A stretch of 43,166 bases of DNA from Planctomycetota bacterium (lineage in GTDB: Bacteria; Planctomycetota; Planctomycetia; Planctomycetales; Planctomycetaceae). A model generated the notes under the pieces. The model saw nothing but the letters and a program-made list of their open reading frames with translations, did no database searches and had not been told where the DNA came from. Each line of letters starts with the position of its first letter. Within the stretch, counting starts at the first letter, position 1. Made by a program: the position numbers and the translations under genes. Of the stretch, positions 31,485-36,529 are shown piece by piece. Location: contig QWPB01000005.1 in assembly GCA_003671275.1 (NCBI GenBank), forward strand, positions 1 through 43,166, in the 5' to 3' direction.

Positions 31485-31787
31485 ATGTCAGTCACACGTC
31501 ACAACGGAACCAAAATTGTACTGCCTCGCACAGGGGCGGATGAGTTCTGGCAACTGGTCCACGACCATTTCGCTAACGACGATGAACGCAAGTGGCGCTA
31601 CCTCGCCATGCTCGCTCTCCGCGAGAACGCCGGCTGGCCGCTCGACCGCATCGGCAATGTACTCGGCCATCCGAAAGGCCACGTAACCCGCTGCCTGGCT
31701 CGGATCAAGCAGGAGATGCGGATCACCTTCCAGGCCGAACCCGCGTTCCTCGACCTGCCGGATGATGAAGTGGAACTCGCCGCATGA
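31485..31787 (+). CDS. Small HTH protein, first gene of the terminase cassette
   Basis: This 100-residue protein has a good AGGAG ribosome site. Its middle (about residues 35-76) reads as a sigma-70 region-4 or resolvase-like helix-turn-helix: KWRYLAMLALRENAGWPLDR, then IGNVLGHPKGHVTRCLARI. The end is acidic. It could be a transcription regulator of the cassette or a DNA-binding packaging factor. A hairpin (31827-31850) follows it. Confidence 0.65.
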   Translation: MSVTRHNGTKIVLPRTGADEFWQLVHDHFANDDERKWRYLAMLALRENAGWPLDRIGNVLGHPKGHVTRCLARIKQEMRITFQAEPAFLDLPDDEVELAA

Positions 31788-31826
31788 GCGAAGTTGTCTG
31801 TCGTCAGTTTTCAGTCATCAGCCAAA

Positions 31827-31850
31827 GCCCAGGGAGCGCCACCCCTGGGC
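31827..31850 (+). terminator. Hairpin after the HTH gene
   Basis: Perfect 8-bp arms GCCCAGGG/CCCTGGGC with an 8-nt loop lie between the HTH and ParB-like genes. The following bases (ATTCCTCTGTT) are only weakly T-rich, so termination may be partial. Confidence 0.45.
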
Positions 31851-31869
31851 ATTCCTCTGTTGACTAACC

Positions 31870-31887
31870 ATCAACCATAAACCCTCT
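31870..31887 (+). repeat. 18-bp direct repeat, copy 1
   Basis: ATCAACCATAAACCCTCT lies nine bases before the ParB-like start codon. An exact second copy (32783-32800) lies five bases before the ATPase start codon. Neither resembles a ribosome-binding site. Confidence 0.65.
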
Positions 31888-31896
31888 TGCCCCTCC

Positions 31897-32469
31897 ATGC
31901 TGATCCAAACCATCCCCCTCGCATACCTCCAACCGGCCCCGTACAACCCGCGGCTGACGCTCCAGCCCGGTGACAAGCGCTGGAAGAAACTCGAACGCTC
32001 GCTGGCCGAGTTCGAACTGGTTCAGCCGATCATCTGGAATCGCCGCACCGGTAATATCGTCGGTGGCCACCAGCGTTGTGAGATCCTGAAGCACCAGGGG
32101 AAGACCGATGTCGAGTGTGTCGTCGTCGACCTTCCTCTCAGCCGCGAGAAGGCCCTCAACGTGGCCCTCAACAACTCGGAAGTCGGCGGCGACTGGGAGG
32201 CCACCAAACTGATGGCTCTGATCGAAGACCTGGCCGAGTCTCCCGACATCGACCCCACCCTCACCGGCTTCGACGAACACCAGCTCCACAGCTTCCAATT
32301 CGAGCCGGCTCTTCCCCCCGAGGACGCTGCCGACGAGACACCACCCTCGAACAAGGTCATCGCCACCCTGGAAATCCCCTACGCACGGTGGGCTGCGGTA
32401 CGAGAGTCCCTGGACGATCTCCTCGGCGAAGAGCCGACCGTCCGCCTGCACGTGAAGCTTCCGGAGTGA
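31897..32469 (+). CDS. ParB-like N-terminal domain protein of phage type
   Basis: This 190-residue protein carries a ParB/sulfiredoxin-like domain at residues 1-110: IPLAYLQPAPYNPR, ELVQPIIWNRRTGNIVGGHQ with R following (the G-G-H-Q-R box), then a strand-helix with LPLSREKALNVALNN. The rest is acidic and ends in a small domain (ATLEIPYARWAAVRESLDDLL) that is unlike chromosomal ParB; no central HTH is present. Such short proteins sit near DNA methylases or terminases in phages, where some are nucleases or CTP-dependent clamps. Its place before the ATPase and terminase genes fits a packaging or genome-handling role. Confidence 0.8.
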   Translation: MLIQTIPLAYLQPAPYNPRLTLQPGDKRWKKLERSLAEFELVQPIIWNRRTGNIVGGHQRCEILKHQGKTDVECVVVDLPLSREKALNVALNNSEVGGDWEATKLMALIEDLAESPDIDPTLTGFDEHQLHSFQFEPALPPEDAADETPPSNKVIATLEIPYARWAAVRESLDDLLGEEPTVRLHVKLPE

Positions 32470-32476
32470 GTCGTAG

Positions 32477-32496
32477 GACGGGCGCTTTTGCCCGTC
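32477..32496. repeat. GGACGGGC-type palindrome, copy 1
   Basis: GACGGGC and GCCCGTC arms flank GCTTTT, preceded by GTAG. It is one of at least six related copies between 32.4 and 35 kb. Confidence 0.7.
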
Positions 32497-32738
32497 ACCG
32501 TTCGACTCCCAATCACCAAACCGCGTGATATGAAACGGAAGCAGCTCACTGCCGGATGTCGTCGATCTTAGAACGACATATCCAGGCCGTCTCGAATCGG
32601 TGTCAATCCGTGAAATCTATGGACCTTCAACGCTTCTCCGTCGGATGAGAAGTTGTCCACTGATTACACGGGTTTTCACAGATGAGGAGGTTAACCTTGA
32701 TCGGGGGTGAGTGACTCACAGACGTTCTCTCCGCTCAG

Positions 32739-32760
32739 GGACGGGCAGGATTGCCCATCC
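32739..32760. repeat. GGACGGGC-type palindrome, copy 2
   Basis: GGACGGGCA pairs with TGCCCATCC with one mismatch, between the ParB-like and ATPase genes. Confidence 0.65.
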
Positions 32761-32782
32761 AACTTCGGTCTCCCCTCCTTCA

Positions 32783-32800
32783 ATCAACCATAAACCCTCT
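32783..32800 (+). repeat. 18-bp direct repeat, copy 2
   Basis: This is an exact copy of the repeat at 31870-31887, placed just before the ATPase start codon at 32806. Confidence 0.65.
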
Positions 32801-32805
32801 CTCCT

Positions 32806-33891
32806 ATGCTCCTCTCCGTCACCTACCCCGTCCTTCCGAAACGCAACTCCGTCCGAGCCTCGCTCGTGATGGACCACTTCGGAATCAGCCAGGACACCAG
32901 CGAGCACGTCCTCGCTCGCGACTTAGAAGTGCCTCTCCAACCCGGCGATGTGGTCCTCTTCACCGGAGCCAGCGGGTCGGGGAAGTCGTCGCTGCTGAGG
33001 GCTGTGCTGCGACAATTGGATGCGGACAGTCAATCGGTCGGGGGAAATTCACCACGGAGGCACGAAGGCACGGAGAAGAGTGGAGCAGAGGCCACAGGTG
33101 TCAGCCTTCCGACTCATGACTCAACGATCGGACTCCCACCGATTAAAGACTCCCCCTCCGTGTCTCTGTGCCTCCGTGGTGAATCTCATTTCACTGAGAC
33201 TAGTGTTTATTCTATCAATCGTCCCATTCTCATCGATCTCCCGTCTCTCCCCCTTGGCACGCAAACCCTCGTCGACGCCATCCCGCTGCCATTCGAGGAG
33301 GCTCTGCAATTGCTCGCCATGTGCGGTCTCGGCGAGGCCCCGCTGCTGCTCCGCACACCGCAAGAACTTTCCGAAGGCCAGCGCTACCGGTTCTCGCTCG
33401 CCCTTGCCGTGGCCCTCAAACCGAAGTGGATCGTCGCCGATGAATTCACCGCGGTCCTCGACCGCACGACCGCCCAGGTGATCGCCTATAACGTTCGGCG
33501 AATTGCAGACCGGTACGGCGTCGGGTTCCTGCTGGCCACTGCTCAGAATGACATCGCCGCCGACCTCTCGCCGGATCTGTGCGTGGCATGCGACCTCGAT
33601 GGCCGAGTGATCGTCACCCGCCAGGCAGCAGAGGCAGACAGGAATGTCTGCCCCACACCTTCCGGCTCCCCTCTTCCCCCAGGAGAGGGGCTGGAGGTGA
33701 GGGAAGTTGGGTCAGACAGCGTTCTTGTCCCTTCGACCGCCGATCCCGGACGGGCAGATGTGCCCGTCCTACAGCGTAAAAAAAAAGACCACCCATCAGT
33801 TTCCACCGCGACCTCTGGATCAGCATCGCCACCCGTGGCGACTGGCCGTATTTCGCTCGGTGGCATTATCGCAGTCACCACATCGGACTGA
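32806..33891 (+). CDS. ABC-type ATPase, repeat-interrupted, upstream half of an ATPase-GNAT pair
   Basis: The 361-residue frame encodes an ABC-type ATPase without membrane domains. Walker A is FTGASGSGKSSLLRAV (residues 52-67), the signature LSEGQRYRFSLALAV (188-202), and Walker B WIVADEF (208-214), followed by LLATAQNDIAADL. Between Walker A and the signature, residues of about 81-132 come from a palindromic repeat (33044-33187). From about 274 onward the sequence comes from further repeats. An A9 run (33778-33786) lies 35 codons before the stop. The arrangement recalls COG2401, ABC-type ATPases fused to an acetyltransferase domain. The stop TGA overlaps the ATG of the GNAT frame (TGATG). 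The ATPase core appears intact; the repeat-derived inserts are probably loops. Confidence 0.75.
   Translation: MLLSVTYPVLPKRNSVRASLVMDHFGISQDTSEHVLARDLEVPLQPGDVVLFTGASGSGKSSLLRAVLRQLDADSQSVGGNSPRRHEGTEKSGAEATGVSLPTHDSTIGLPPIKDSPSVSLCLRGESHFTETSVYSINRPILIDLPSLPLGTQTLVDAIPLPFEEALQLLAMCGLGEAPLLLRTPQELSEGQRYRFSLALAVALKPKWIVADEFTAVLDRTTAQVIAYNVRRIADRYGVGFLLATAQNDIAADLSPDLCVACDLDGRVIVTRQAAEADRNVCPTPSGSPLPPGEGLEVREVGSDSVLVPSTADPGRADVPVLQRKKKDHPSVSTATSGSASPPVATGRISLGGIIAVTTSD
33044..33187. repeat. Long-armed palindromic element inside the ATPase gene
   Basis: Arms of 32 bp (33044-33075 and 33156-33187; 28 of 32 positions match) contain TTCACCACGGAGGCAC, a sequence type I recall as dispersed in planctomycete genomes. 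The element adds about 50 codons in frame between Walker A and the signature motif. Confidence 0.75.
33633..33652. repeat. GGCAGACA palindrome in the ATPase gene
   Basis: GGCAGACA and TGTCTGCC form perfect 8-bp arms with a GGAA loop, at the point where recognisable ATPase sequence ends. A GC-rich imperfect inverted repeat (CTCCCCTCTTCCCCC / GGAGAGGGG) follows at about 33665-33690. Confidence 0.65.
33748..33769. repeat. GGACGGGC-type palindrome, copy 3
   Basis: GGACGGGCA and TGCCCGTCC are perfect 9-bp arms with a GATG loop, inside the 3' end of the ATPase frame and nine bases before the A9 run. Confidence 0.75.
33778..33786 (+). other. A9 run, possible frameshift site joining ATPase and GNAT frames
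   Basis: Nine consecutive A form AAA AAA AAA in the ATPase frame. A -1 slip (or one extra A in the mRNA) moves reading into the GNAT frame, where 34 codons (33787-33888) continue as protein-like sequence with no start codon available. A stop TAA at 33777 blocks that frame upstream. Confidence 0.6.
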
Positions 33892-34412
33892 TGAAGTTCG
33901 GTGTCCTGTTATGGCACAAGGACCAGCCGGTCGGCATCTGCATCTTTGTCGCACCGCCGAGGTCGCTCAAGCCGCGCAACCAGTTCTTTGGACATCGAGG
34001 CGGGTGGAATCGCGCGACGATGCTCGCCCTCAACAAGCAGCTCGTCACATTGCAGCGGGTGGTGATCCACCCGAGCTATCGGGGGGCGGGCTTGGCCTCA
34101 GCCTTTGTAAGAAAGGCCTGCGAGCTGTGCCCGTCCCCCTGGATTGAAACGATGAGCCAGATGGGCCGAATCAACCCGTTCTTTGAGTCCGCCGGTTTTC
34201 AGCGAGTCGGAGTGATCACGGTGGAGTCGGAGTCGCGTGCCACCCATTCGAGAATCTTTGGAGGTCGTCGTCATGGAGCCCAAGCCCTCGTCACGGAAGA
34301 AACCTTCCTCAAAAGCCGCTACGCCTCGCCGGTCTACTACATCCTCGACAACCGCCGAACCGGTGAAGCCGCGAAAGAGAGCGGCACGGCGTCAGCCTGC
34401 CGAGGCGAATGA
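33891..34412 (+). CDS. GNAT-like acetyltransferase domain, downstream half of the ATPase-GNAT pair
   Basis: The 173-residue frame from ATG 33891 holds a GNAT-like domain: FGVLLWHKDQPVGICIFVAP, then TLQRVVIHPSYRGAGLASAF, the acetyl-CoA-binding R-G-A-G-L-A loop, and FFESAGFQRVG. The domain appears to start earlier: the 30 codons before the ATG read FHRDLWISIATRGDWPYFAR and continue WHYRSHHIGL, and contain no ATG, GTG or TTG. This stretch would be made only by a slip from the ATPase frame at 33778-33786. Alternatively translation restarts at ATG 33891, which overlaps the ATPase stop (TGATG). The end overlaps the small-terminase gene by 140 bases. The role of such ATPase-GNAT proteins is unknown. 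Confidence 0.7.
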   Translation: MKFGVLLWHKDQPVGICIFVAPPRSLKPRNQFFGHRGGWNRATMLALNKQLVTLQRVVIHPSYRGAGLASAFVRKACELCPSPWIETMSQMGRINPFFESAGFQRVGVITVESESRATHSRIFGGRRHGAQALVTEETFLKSRYASPVYYILDNRRTGEAAKESGTASACRGE

Positions 34413-34884
34413 GTCTCTCAGCACCGGACGAGCCAAAGGGCCCGTCCTACCTGACGCCCCCTGCCTGCTCCCGACCACCGATGAAGTCATCACCCTCACC
34501 CGCCAGCAGCAGGACGAGTACCTGACCCTCCTCACCAAGGGAGCCTCCGCAGCTGCCGCTTGCCAGAAGCTCGGCATCTCGATCACCGCCTTGCTGGTCA
34601 CGATGGAACAGTCGCCGAAGTTCCGCACCCGCGCGACTGCCGTCTCCGATGTCCTCAGCCAAAACGTCGCCGCCCAGCTCTACCAGACCGCAATGAAAGG
34701 GAGCGTCACCGCCCAAACGTTCTACCTCCGCAATCAACCGCCACCGGAATGGCCGAGCGAAGAAGACGAGTTGCCTCCGCCTCCGGATCTCGCTCCGCTC
34801 TCCACCGCCGAACTCGAATCTGTCGACGCCGCCGAGGAGGAGGAACTCCAGGCGATCAAGGGAAGGCGAAAGCCCCACAAGTAG
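34273..34884 (+). CDS. Small terminase-like HTH protein
   Basis: This 203-residue protein begins at ATG 34273 inside the GNAT gene; an earlier start at 34237 is possible. The first 70 residues are Lys/Arg/Ser/Pro-rich and disordered. The middle (about 78-120) has an HTH of small-terminase type: LTRQQQDEYLTLLTKGASAA, then AACQKLGISITALLVTMEQ. A helical region follows (SDVLSQNVAAQLYQTAMKGS, then AQTFYLRNQPPPEW), and the end is acidic then basic. A GGACGGGC-type palindrome (34426-34447) lies within the coding region. Position directly before the large terminase supports the role: it would bind packaging sites. Confidence 0.75.
   Translation: MEPKPSSRKKPSSKAATPRRSTTSSTTAEPVKPRKRAARRQPAEANESLSTGRAKGPVLPDAPCLLPTTDEVITLTRQQQDEYLTLLTKGASAAAACQKLGISITALLVTMEQSPKFRTRATAVSDVLSQNVAAQLYQTAMKGSVTAQTFYLRNQPPPEWPSEEDELPPPPDLAPLSTAELESVDAAEEEELQAIKGRRKPHK
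34426..34447. repeat. GGACGGGC-type palindrome, copy 4
   Basis: GGACGAGCC pairs with GGCCCGTCC with one mismatch. It lies in frame within the small-terminase gene. Confidence 0.6.
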
Positions 34885-34905
34885 GATAGGCAATCCTGCC
34901 CGTCC
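34884..34905. repeat. GGACGGGC-type palindrome, copy 5
   Basis: GGATAGGCA pairs with TGCCCGTCC with two mismatches, overlapping the stop region of the small-terminase gene. Confidence 0.6.
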
Positions 34906-34913
34906 CCACCGTA

Positions 34914-34936
34914 GGACGAGCCCATTTGGCCCGTCC
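34914..34936. repeat. GGACGGGC-type palindrome, copy 6
   Basis: GGACGAGCC pairs with GGCCCGTCC with one mismatch, preceded by GTA, between the two terminase genes. Confidence 0.65.
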
Positions 34937-34966
34937 AGCCAGTCCCTACTTGCAGCCGAATACCCT

Positions 34967-36529
34967 ATGCCGCGCCGCTCACGTCGATATCGACCGACTC
35001 CCGACGATGACCAGCGACGGGCGCTCATGGCCCGAATCGAACGGCGGCGCCTCATCTCGAATCTGTTTGCACTTCAATCCCCCTCACGGTTTCGTGATCG
35101 GCTCCTACTCTCCTCTTCACCGTCGCGATTGCTCCGCGATGAAATCCAACCGTGGCAATCCGCCGACTTCGAGGCCCTCGATCCGGCATGGTGTCGGTTG
35201 GCGGGTATGCCCTGCGATGATGAGATTCCCCACCGCCGGGCCTATATTGAACGCCCGCGCGGGCACTCCAAAACCTCCGATATGGCCGCCCAGATCGCTT
35301 GGATCTTGCTCGCCGCCCGCACGGCCATCGTGGGTGTCGCCGCAGCAGCCGACCGCGAACAGGCAGCGTTGTTACTCGCTGCCATCAAACGTCTCGCCTC
35401 ACTCAACCCGACGCTCTGCCACGACCTCACGTTCGTCGAGGGAGCAGTCCGTAACCGCCGCACGGGCAGCCGTCTCGACCTCATCTCGTCCGATGTCGGG
35501 TCGTCGTACGGCATCTTGCCCGACTTCGTAATCTGCGACGAACTCAGCCACTGGCCCGGACCCGAGTTGTGGTACTCACTCCTCTCCTCAGCCGCCAAGA
35601 AGCCCGACTGCGTCCTCGCGGTTCTCACCAATGCGGGCGTCGGGCGCGGCTGGCAGTGGGAGGTCCGCGAACAGGCCAGCCAGTCGCCCCACTGGTATTT
35701 CTCGTCGCTCGATGGCCCCCATGCTCCGTGGATCACAGAGCAGAGTCTCGACGAGCAGCAGGCCCTGCTCCCGCCCGCTGTGTATGAGCGGTTGTGGCTC
35801 AACCGCTGGCAGCACTCGGACGGCGAGTTCGTCTCGCTGGCCGAAGCGGAGGTCTGCCTCGACCCGACCCTCACCCGGAAAGACCACGGCTCCCCGCAGC
35901 ACCAGTACATCGCCGCGATCGACTACGCCGAGAAGCACGACTACACCGTCGGCGTCATCGTCCACCGCGAGGGAGACCGCACGATCGTCGACCGCATGGA
36001 TGTCGTGCGGCCTTCGCCGCAACATCCCACACCGATCGCCTGGGTCGAAGCATGGATCGAACACACTGCGATGGCTTTTCCCGAGATCACTTTCGTACTG
36101 GATGAATACCAGCTCGTGGCGACGCTGCAGAAATACGAGACACGGTACGTGATGCGGAGGTTTCCGTTTCTGGGTGGATTGGGAAACCATCGGTTGGCGC
36201 TGCATCTGCGGCAGTCGATCCTGCAACGGAATCTGGCCTGGTACCCCGGTTGTGGAACGTACCCTGCCACTGCCACCTCCCTCTGGCAGGAAACGCCTCC
36301 CACCACGGGCGAGACCCTCCGTGATGATCTGGTCACTGAACTTTCGAGTTTGCTCCTACGCCAGAACAGCAGTGGCCGCGTGCGGATCGATCATCGAGCC
36401 GACGCCCATGACGACCGCAGCTTCGCCCTGGGGGCCGCCTGCCTGCAACTAGTCGGTCAGCCGCCTGCCGAAACCCAGTTTCTGGACATCACTCCCCCCG
36501 CTGATCGTGGCGGTTTTGACTGGTATTGA
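34967..36529 (+). CDS. Phage-type large terminase subunit
   Basis: This 520-residue protein has the two terminase domains. The ATPase part shows a modified Walker A, ERPRGHSKT (residues 95-103), a Walker B PDFVICDE (185-192) followed by a coupling-like SHW, and a motif near TNAG (221-224). The RNase H-like nuclease part begins at AAIDYAEKHDYTVGV (Asp319) and continues with FVLDEY (Asp379) and HDDRSFALG (Asp482/483), so all three acidic positions seem present. The length is usual for TerL. No portal, capsid, protease or tail gene follows, which is unusual for a prophage. It is the last gene of the cassette that starts at 31485. It looks intact. Confidence 0.82.
   Translation: MPRRSRRYRPTPDDDQRRALMARIERRRLISNLFALQSPSRFRDRLLLSSSPSRLLRDEIQPWQSADFEALDPAWCRLAGMPCDDEIPHRRAYIERPRGHSKTSDMAAQIAWILLAARTAIVGVAAAADREQAALLLAAIKRLASLNPTLCHDLTFVEGAVRNRRTGSRLDLISSDVGSSYGILPDFVICDELSHWPGPELWYSLLSSAAKKPDCVLAVLTNAGVGRGWQWEVREQASQSPHWYFSSLDGPHAPWITEQSLDEQQALLPPAVYERLWLNRWQHSDGEFVSLAEAEVCLDPTLTRKDHGSPQHQYIAAIDYAEKHDYTVGVIVHREGDRTIVDRMDVVRPSPQHPTPIAWVEAWIEHTAMAFPEITFVLDEYQLVATLQKYETRYVMRRFPFLGGLGNHRLALHLRQSILQRNLAWYPGCGTYPATATSLWQETPPTTGETLRDDLVTELSSLLLRQNSSGRVRIDHRADAHDDRSFALGAACLQLVGQPPAETQFLDITPPADRGGFDWY

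Follow-up and report, generated by a model that had tools for sequence, protein, structure and literature searches.

Here, we describe a run of nine adenines (A9) in a planctomycete gene that very probably is a conserved and selected site of frameshifting at the time of expression, whether RNA polymerase or the ribosome is the one to slip. The run lies in a stretch of 43,166 nucleotides, which as a whole we call the window. Reading straight through the run would give an ABC ATPase with a tail of 34 codons, and slippage at the run would join the same ATPase to a complete GNAT acyltransferase. Most likely it would be RNA polymerase that slips, adding one A in part of the mRNAs and thereby bringing GNAT into frame; some or all of the shift might instead come from -1 slippage of the ribosome on A_AAA_AAA. 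We infer the slippage itself, its direction and amount, and the importance of both products from sequence comparison.

The A9 is the only one on either strand of the window, where 0.05 are expected from shuffled sequences. The ATPase ORF passes it in the phase AAA AAA AAA. The original prediction had let the ATPase frame end in the run; the frame in fact goes 34 codons further (33787-33888), to a TGA at 33889-33891. It was right in placing the GNAT frame one base back: GNAT is encoded in the -1 frame relative to the ATPase and opens behind the TAA at 33777-33779, where it reads KKRPPISFHRDLWISIATRGDWPYFARWHYRSHHIGL and holds no ATG, GTG or TTG until 33891. The absence of start codons had thus been recognized correctly, only the coordinates given for the stretch, 33787-33888, are those of the ATPase-frame tail. 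The start-less GNAT stretch is 33780-33890, 37 codons, of which 34 lie from 33789 on. The two ORFs overlap in TGATG (TGA 33889-33891, ATG 33891-33893). The gene has one match in its own genome, which is a draft assembly of 198 contigs. ABC ATPase motifs and the GNAT fold are both present (PF00005, GNAT Pfam matches, predicted fold), a combination that presumably goes by the family name COG2401.

Table 1. Features of the window around the ATPase-GNAT junction (positions are those of the window).
Feature	Position	Strand	Basis and remarks
Small protein at the head of the cassette	31485..31787	+	Weak similarity to sigma-70 region 4, E 0.04
ParB-N-like protein, resembling the N-terminal part of DNA methyltransferase models	31897..32469	+	Profile matches
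ABC-type ATPase ORF	32806..33891	+	Frame crosses A9 and stops at TGA 33889-33891; PF00005 E 6e-13
In-frame insert in the ATPase, a palindromic interspersed repeat with 32-nt arms, 88% complementary	33044..33187	+	25 matches in own genome, 3 at this place
End of the ATPase and linker, largely other interspersed repeat pieces	33620..33777	+	21 matches in own genome, 1 of them this place
TAA closing the GNAT frame upstream	33777..33779	+	Sequence
Putative A9 slippage run	33778..33786	+	Holds A_AAA_AAA (33780-33786) in the ATPase frame
Initial 37 codons of the GNAT frame, lacking a start codon	33780..33890	+	Sequence, alignment, predicted structure
Core of the conserved nucleotide stretch, TTCGCTCGGTGGCATTA	33852..33868	+	Conserved in relatives beyond protein needs; once in own genome (<=2 mismatches)
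Remainder of the GNAT domain, beginning with the ATG of TGATG	33891..34412	+	ATG-started ORF; GNAT Pfam matches
Terminase-small-subunit-like protein	34237..34884	+	phrog_309 E 0.003, weak; similar place in relatives
Terminase large subunit	34967..36529	+	PF03354 E 8e-9; phrog_9 E 3e-19

The start-less stretch is part of the GNAT fold. When 45 GNAT parts are aligned and numbered with residue 1 counted from 33786, six of the 20 invariant residues (D19, W20, F23, W26, Y28 and R29) fall into residues 1-35 (33786-33890). The predicted structure of the window's GNAT part has a mean pLDDT of 91.5, and 90-98 in the blocks within residues 1-30, with beta1 at residues 10-14 and alpha1 at 17-24. ATG 33891 corresponds to residue 36, the first of the next strand (36-44), and a start there would thus lose the first strand and helix of the fold. 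A fused model of the in-frame relative L010 reaches a mean pLDDT of 85.6. That the stretch looked conserved and GNAT-like from the window alone is confirmed by beta1-alpha1 and by the relatives; its absence from all GNAT homologues, which the original prediction had named as a refutation, was not observed, and the DW motif is present in all 85 distinct homologous loci.

These loci were collected in several rounds. The GNAT part was found in 25 of 59 relatives, in 48 of 170 genomes of the family, in 78 of 397 genomes of the class and in 39 loci of genome_contigs. Five of the 138 loci have no detectable ATPase half (L004, L025, L065, L102 and L111) and 48 are duplicates, which leaves 85 distinct loci with both halves. 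Four phage loci were counted apart, two weak matches in the class (G411, G426) and some fragments were left out, and the viral contigs L143 and L144 stand outside the 85. In L102 (the same gene as L004; genome G017) the ATPase half is replaced by a recombinase-like reading, judged from its translation alone, and in L111 (G309) unrelated sequence stands in its place; L102/L004 and L111 are broken copies.

GNAT lies at -1 in 51 of the 85 loci, in frame in 31 and at +1 in 3. The junctions at -1 carry A9 in 39 loci, A8 in 4, A10 in 1, A7 in 1, T6 in 3, T7 in 1 and no run in 2; those in frame carry no run in 27, A10 in 2, A9 in 1 and T6 in 1; all three at +1 carry A8. Thus a run marks the junction in 52 of 54 out-of-frame loci vs 4 of 31 in-frame loci (Fisher 1e-15, kinship ignored). 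Nine or more A's in a row stand at 43 of the 85 junctions and nowhere in the remaining 430,522 bases of these loci, where nine or more T's occur once. Since the A9 at -1 is found also in complete genomes, five in a single contig (G006, G020, G034, G061, G177) and one, G124, in two, assembly error fails to account for the pattern. The fusion by slippage at A9, proposed from the window alone, is the reading best supported by this comparison, with a run at the junction in 49 of the 51 loci at -1. The expectation that the two halves form one chain is likewise supported by the 31 homologues that have both in one frame.

The exceptions are informative. Only L073 and L024 are at -1 without a run, and in both GNAT has its own start behind a Shine-Dalgarno (SD) motif, AGGAGG...ATG in L073 and GGAG...GTG in L024, upstream of the whole GNAT domain. 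In 28 of the 54 out-of-frame loci, the window included, the open GNAT frame contains no ATG, GTG or TTG between 40 codons upstream and 12 codons downstream of the junction; the other 26 have some start near the junction, with an SD-like motif in three, namely L073, L024 and L129, the last of which has A9. Four loci (L045, L053, L104 and L114) have no A run and carry a T7 or T6 about 20 bases further on, which forms T_TTT_TTT or T_TTT_TTC in the ATPase frame in all of them except L114. The genomes of three of these loci belong to group f8, and the fourth, L053, is identical to L112 from G331, also f8. In L008 and L086, two of the 51 loci at -1, the ATPase frame does not remain open through the run but closes upstream of it or within it, and these copies may be broken. 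The in-frame genes with A9 or A10 are L006, L009 and L023. Thirty of the 31 in-frame loci translate whole without a stop, and L009 begins at a contig end. The contig L143 (IMG/VR, 14,277 bases, classed as viral) carries ATPase-A8-GNAT at -1 followed by matches to the small and large terminase subunits (TerS and TerL), and L144 has ATPase and GNAT in frame. Both were found by an alignment-based search of viral contigs, in which a scan with a single protein as query recovered no relative.

Frame and run follow kinship on a quick tree of both halves built without the junction. Frame state needs at least 11 changes on this tree, and its starred branches force 5 changes for the -1 group and 3 for the in-frame group. 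The starred branches yield only 3 independent pairs, in which the run goes the same way in 1.6 and the other way in 0 on average, and a formal kinship-aware test of run against frame is therefore impossible. Run-bearing genes at -1 occur in three family groups (f1, f3 and f8) of the window's class, with A9 at -1 in both f1 and f3. The neighbor of the window in the tree is L009, which has A10 and is in frame.

Given a functional shift, the polymerase seems likelier than the ribosome as its agent. The accounts of dnaX in PMC5009743 and PMC3711429 describe efficient slippage at nine A's or T's, which is used in Thermus dnaX. That the ribosome alone does the work, by -1 slippage of two tRNAs on A_AAA_AAA, A_AAA_AAG, A_AAA_AAC or T_TTT_TTC, is possible, if doubtful. 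It would fit the X_XXY_YYZ heptamer present in the ATPase frame of 48 of the 49 run-bearing loci at -1, but this count gives no support at the A9 loci, since an A9 contains such a heptamer whatever its phase. It would also fit a shift of -1 in 51 loci and of +1 in only 3, a preference that one added A gives equally well. The full A9 is kept, although seven letters would suffice for the ribosome, and it is kept in all three codon phases (26 loci in phase 0, 1 in phase 1 and 12 in phase 2 among the 39 at -1), which favors the polymerase. The same is argued by run length and frame shifting together in some relatives (A8 at +1 in 3, A10 in frame in 2); with the ribosome alone the +1 loci with A8 would stay unread. 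An SD-like motif occurs within the 20 bases upstream of the run in 8 of 49 loci, and its absence from the other 41, together with downstream folds that disagree, again favors the polymerase over the ribosome. So does G034, whose site is A_AAA_AAG and whose genome has tRNA-Lys with both anticodons, UUU and CUU, a condition that is discussed for polymerase slippage in Thermus in the relevant passages of PMC5009743. Against the polymerase alone, and for the ribosome, speak the short runs of the T loci: the T6/T7 of L045, L053, L104 and L114 look too short for polymerase slippage, and those of the first three count in the ribosome's favor. Folding of the 90 nucleotides downstream is also slightly stronger in the -1 loci (mean z against synonymous shuffles -0.56, n=51) than in the in-frame loci (0.11, n=31). 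This difference is too weak, and the SD-like motifs are too few, for a stimulator like that of dnaX, which we rejected; single-sequence folds at the junctions disagree and yield no common downstream stem. Selection on the position of the ATPase-frame stop was rejected as well, as in-frame genes have a stop at similar places and its position is hence no sign of selection for the short product. As a caution for the preferred reading of a selected frameshift site, the A9 or A10 of the in-frame L006, L009 and L023 would also be expected if run length merely drifts. As a separate observation on the tRNA genes of G034, 16 of them lie within 2.7 kb in L175 (G034:C1:1556200-1558900), with clusters of 6 and 5 elsewhere in the genome (L176, L177).

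The remaining explanations do without a shift during expression. The true run might be A10, giving one chain, or the gene might be a recent pseudogene. A draft genome of 198 contigs, the A10 of the in-frame neighbor L009, and the H-loop Gln and repeat insert of the window's ATPase would be in keeping with such an error or mutation. It is nevertheless improbable: a one-off event, which the original prediction had listed, cannot account for the recurrence of A9 at -1 in 38 other distinct loci, among them the five single-contig genomes and G124, and the window's GNAT frame is open to its end with the invariant residues kept. Reinitiation or separate initiation, also named at the outset, would make GNAT a second protein started from the ATG in TGATG (33891) and coupled to the ATPase stop, with the A9 incidental. 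The TGATG overlap suggests it, an ATG or GTG stands at about the same place in some relatives, the phages encode GNAT separately, and L073 and L024 give it its own SD-led start. Yet a start at 33891 drops beta1-alpha1 and six of the 20 invariant residues, and where an SD-led start exists and the run is gone, as in L073 and L024, the start precedes the whole domain. Reinitiation also leaves unexplained why A9 stands at the junction in 39 of 51 loci at -1 and is absent elsewhere, and we regard it as very improbable. Hardly to be expected at all, and the least probable of these readings, is phase variation, in which replication slippage would alter the run length and switch GNAT on and off between cells. 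Run and frame do vary among relatives (A8 at +1 in 3, A10 in frame in 2, A9 at -1 in 39), but the assemblies with an A run divide into 45 at -1, 3 at +1 and 3 in frame, whereas an unbiased switch would leave about one third in frame.

Besides the run, the coding sequence carries a second conserved nucleotide signal: across GNAT residues 21-35 the loci agree in their codons more than expected from codon usage, most strongly at GCT CGG TGG CAT. With expectations calculated from codon usage and kinship ignored, the out-of-frame loci have GCT in 44 of 51 cases (6.1 expected), CGG in 49 of 51 (14.5) and CAT in 50 of 53 (25.2); the in-frame loci have GCT in 9 of 29 (2.1), CGG in 22 of 27 (8.6) and CAT in 25 of 31 (11.6). 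A lone further codon, Ser179 AGC, also stands out (z 8.8 and 6.8); a possible reason is that the two codon boxes of Ser are not interchangeable. T is the third base of the conserved Ala codon in 45 of 51 loci with an A run vs 12 of 34 without (Fisher 8e-7), a comparison with 3 independent pairs on starred branches only, which go the same way in 1.0 and the other way in 0.3 on average. The conserved stretch, with its core at 33852-33868 in the window, may serve recoding, the overlapping tail of the ATPase frame, or something unrelated. A hairpin over the conserved nucleotides, GCUCGGU-GGCAUU-ACCG-n-AGC, was considered and rejected: folds of single sequences do not agree with one another, and GCT is retained even where the codon supposed to pair with it has changed.

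The gene is part of a cassette (31485-36529) of small protein, ParB-like protein, ATPase/GNAT, TerS-like protein and TerL, which is flanked by an M24-type peptidase gene on one side and a gene for a metallo-beta-lactamase-fold protein on the other, the latter next to the terminase genes. TerS-like and TerL matches lie at similar distances in 25 of 25 rows (24 from the window's family or from identical loci, and L065); of the same rows, 18 have a match to the ParB-like protein and 16 one to the small protein; some of them do not reach far enough upstream. In 43 rows of other groups, duplicates included, no TerS or TerL matching the window's proteins was found, a search that distant terminases could escape. 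At two Gemmataceae-type loci three of nine neighboring ORFs match Pfam at 1e-5 (aldo/keto reductase, glyoxalase-like and PQQ-repeat protein), and an ORF comparison of 23 loci mostly recovered the ATPase/GNAT gene itself. An intact prophage was considered but found no support: tblastn with partial portal proteins of two phages gave no portal in the window, where distant portals could escape, and PF04860 had no match in the two viral contigs. Four phages (SSU5, nickie, RHph_N1_15 and BUCTxx99) share with the window the order of ParB-like genes, ABC ATPase and then GNAT, and in the three with a fetched stretch long enough to include it the large terminase gene comes two genes later. Unlike in the window, ATPase and GNAT are separate genes in these phages, and the fetched stretches contain no A or T run of at least 8.

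The first PDB match of the GNAT model in Foldseek is phage Mu Mom (8bv8, E 8e-7), and VIA-align places the model on Mom 8bv8 with Z 13.1, an rmsd of 4.4 and 9% identity over 164 aligned residues; other GNATs come close behind, with Z of 12.4 or less. Among viral proteins the fused model is best matched by one of Leptospira phage LE4 that is annotated as GNAT (366 residues, TM 0.70 and 0.78). The ATPase matches several models of defense-system ATPases (best mad3, E 1e-17), and six of the 45 GNAT parts show weak similarity to Druantia DruA (best E 0.003). PMC7824862, with reference to an earlier survey, presents an ABC-ATPase-coupled GNAT whose predicted role is acyl modification of a DNA base. 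As described there the family combines an ABC ATPase with a GNAT, as here, where the two share one frame in 31 of 85 loci; unlike there, most loci here would be joined across a frameshift and lie in bacterial genomes, and the likeness is one of description and not member by member. By this analogy, acyl modification of DNA bases is a lead to the function of the fused enzyme.

The site is conserved in the family, as judged from the aligned loci, and this holds apart from the question of whether the window's own gene is fully active. The ABC signature is LS[ED]GQ-like in 82 of 85 loci. The H-loop of the window reads ATAQND, with Gln in place of the His that is kept in 82 of 85 loci (56 by pattern, 26 by eye), and the window's branch in the quick tree is long (0.64 vs a median of 0.22). 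Together with the in-frame repeat insert and the largely repeat-derived linker these features make the window's own ATPase look partly degraded, and this copy may be decaying. The palindromic repeat at 33044-33187 sits between Walker A and the signature motif, and parts of it occur elsewhere in the genome. A short palindromic element like GGACGGGCA..TGCCCGTCC, about 22 nt each, occurs at 32476, 32739, 33748, 34426 and 34884, around and inside the cassette genes and once just upstream of the A9.

The comparison with known recoding systems begins with dnaX. In the passages of PMC5009743 and PMC3711429 that treat it, Thermus thermophilus uses polymerase slippage at nine A's, E. coli uses A_AAA_AAG, and two-ORF dnaX genes have 7-10 A's. 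As in dnaX, one gene with a slippery A run would here give two products, one shorter and one longer, with the ATPase part in common, and as in the two-ORF dnaX genes the longer product would need the shift. In contrast, the long product of Thermus and E. coli dnaX, as described there, is a single ORF and slippage yields the short one; moreover, E. coli dnaX has an SD-like motif and a hairpin as stimulator, of which none was found here, and the second part is here an acyltransferase. Conserved overlaps at 9A come mostly from insertion sequence (IS) elements and mapW in the text of Baranov et al. 2005 (PMC1088944), where an arrangement kept in non-identical homologues serves as the criterion for likely functional slippage. 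Like those genes, ours has two overlapping ORFs joined at 9A and kept in non-identical homologues; unlike them it shows no sign of an insertion sequence, has one match in its own genome and occurs in three family groups (f1, f3, f8). By the account that PMC4066793 gives of PMC3711429, 3317 of 4730 candidate recoding genes came from IS elements, and the other clusters are mostly without functional analysis. In the literature on programmed frameshifting and slippage, planctomycete recoding, and Mom, ParB and ABC ATPases, mostly open papers and their main texts without supplements, we found no report of an ATPase-A9-GNAT site. The main text of the paper on slippage and programmed frameshifting that names Planctomycetes does not mention an acetyltransferase.

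A fuller picture can be drawn only tentatively. The gene might encode a phage-derived ATPase of DNA modification or packaging, whose mix of ATPase and ATPase-acyltransferase would be set by polymerase slippage at A9. Several planctomycete families would have retained this arrangement, one of them with T_TTT_TTC as a replacement slippery site, and a separate nucleotide element about 65-80 bases downstream would act in recoding or in the short product.

If the frameshift reading is true, the A9 is a recoding site in an ordinary bacterial gene. The family then offers a natural graded series, from separate genes in phages and a start behind an SD motif (L073, L024) through A9 at -1, T6/T7 at -1, A8 at +1 and A10 in frame to a plain fusion, and thus the question of how and why fusion is rationed becomes directly testable. 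It is also a warning that such a GNAT half can pass for a truncated or frameshifted gene. Beyond the single site, the finding suggests that many planctomycetes carry a phage-derived cassette whose enzyme is predicted to modify DNA.
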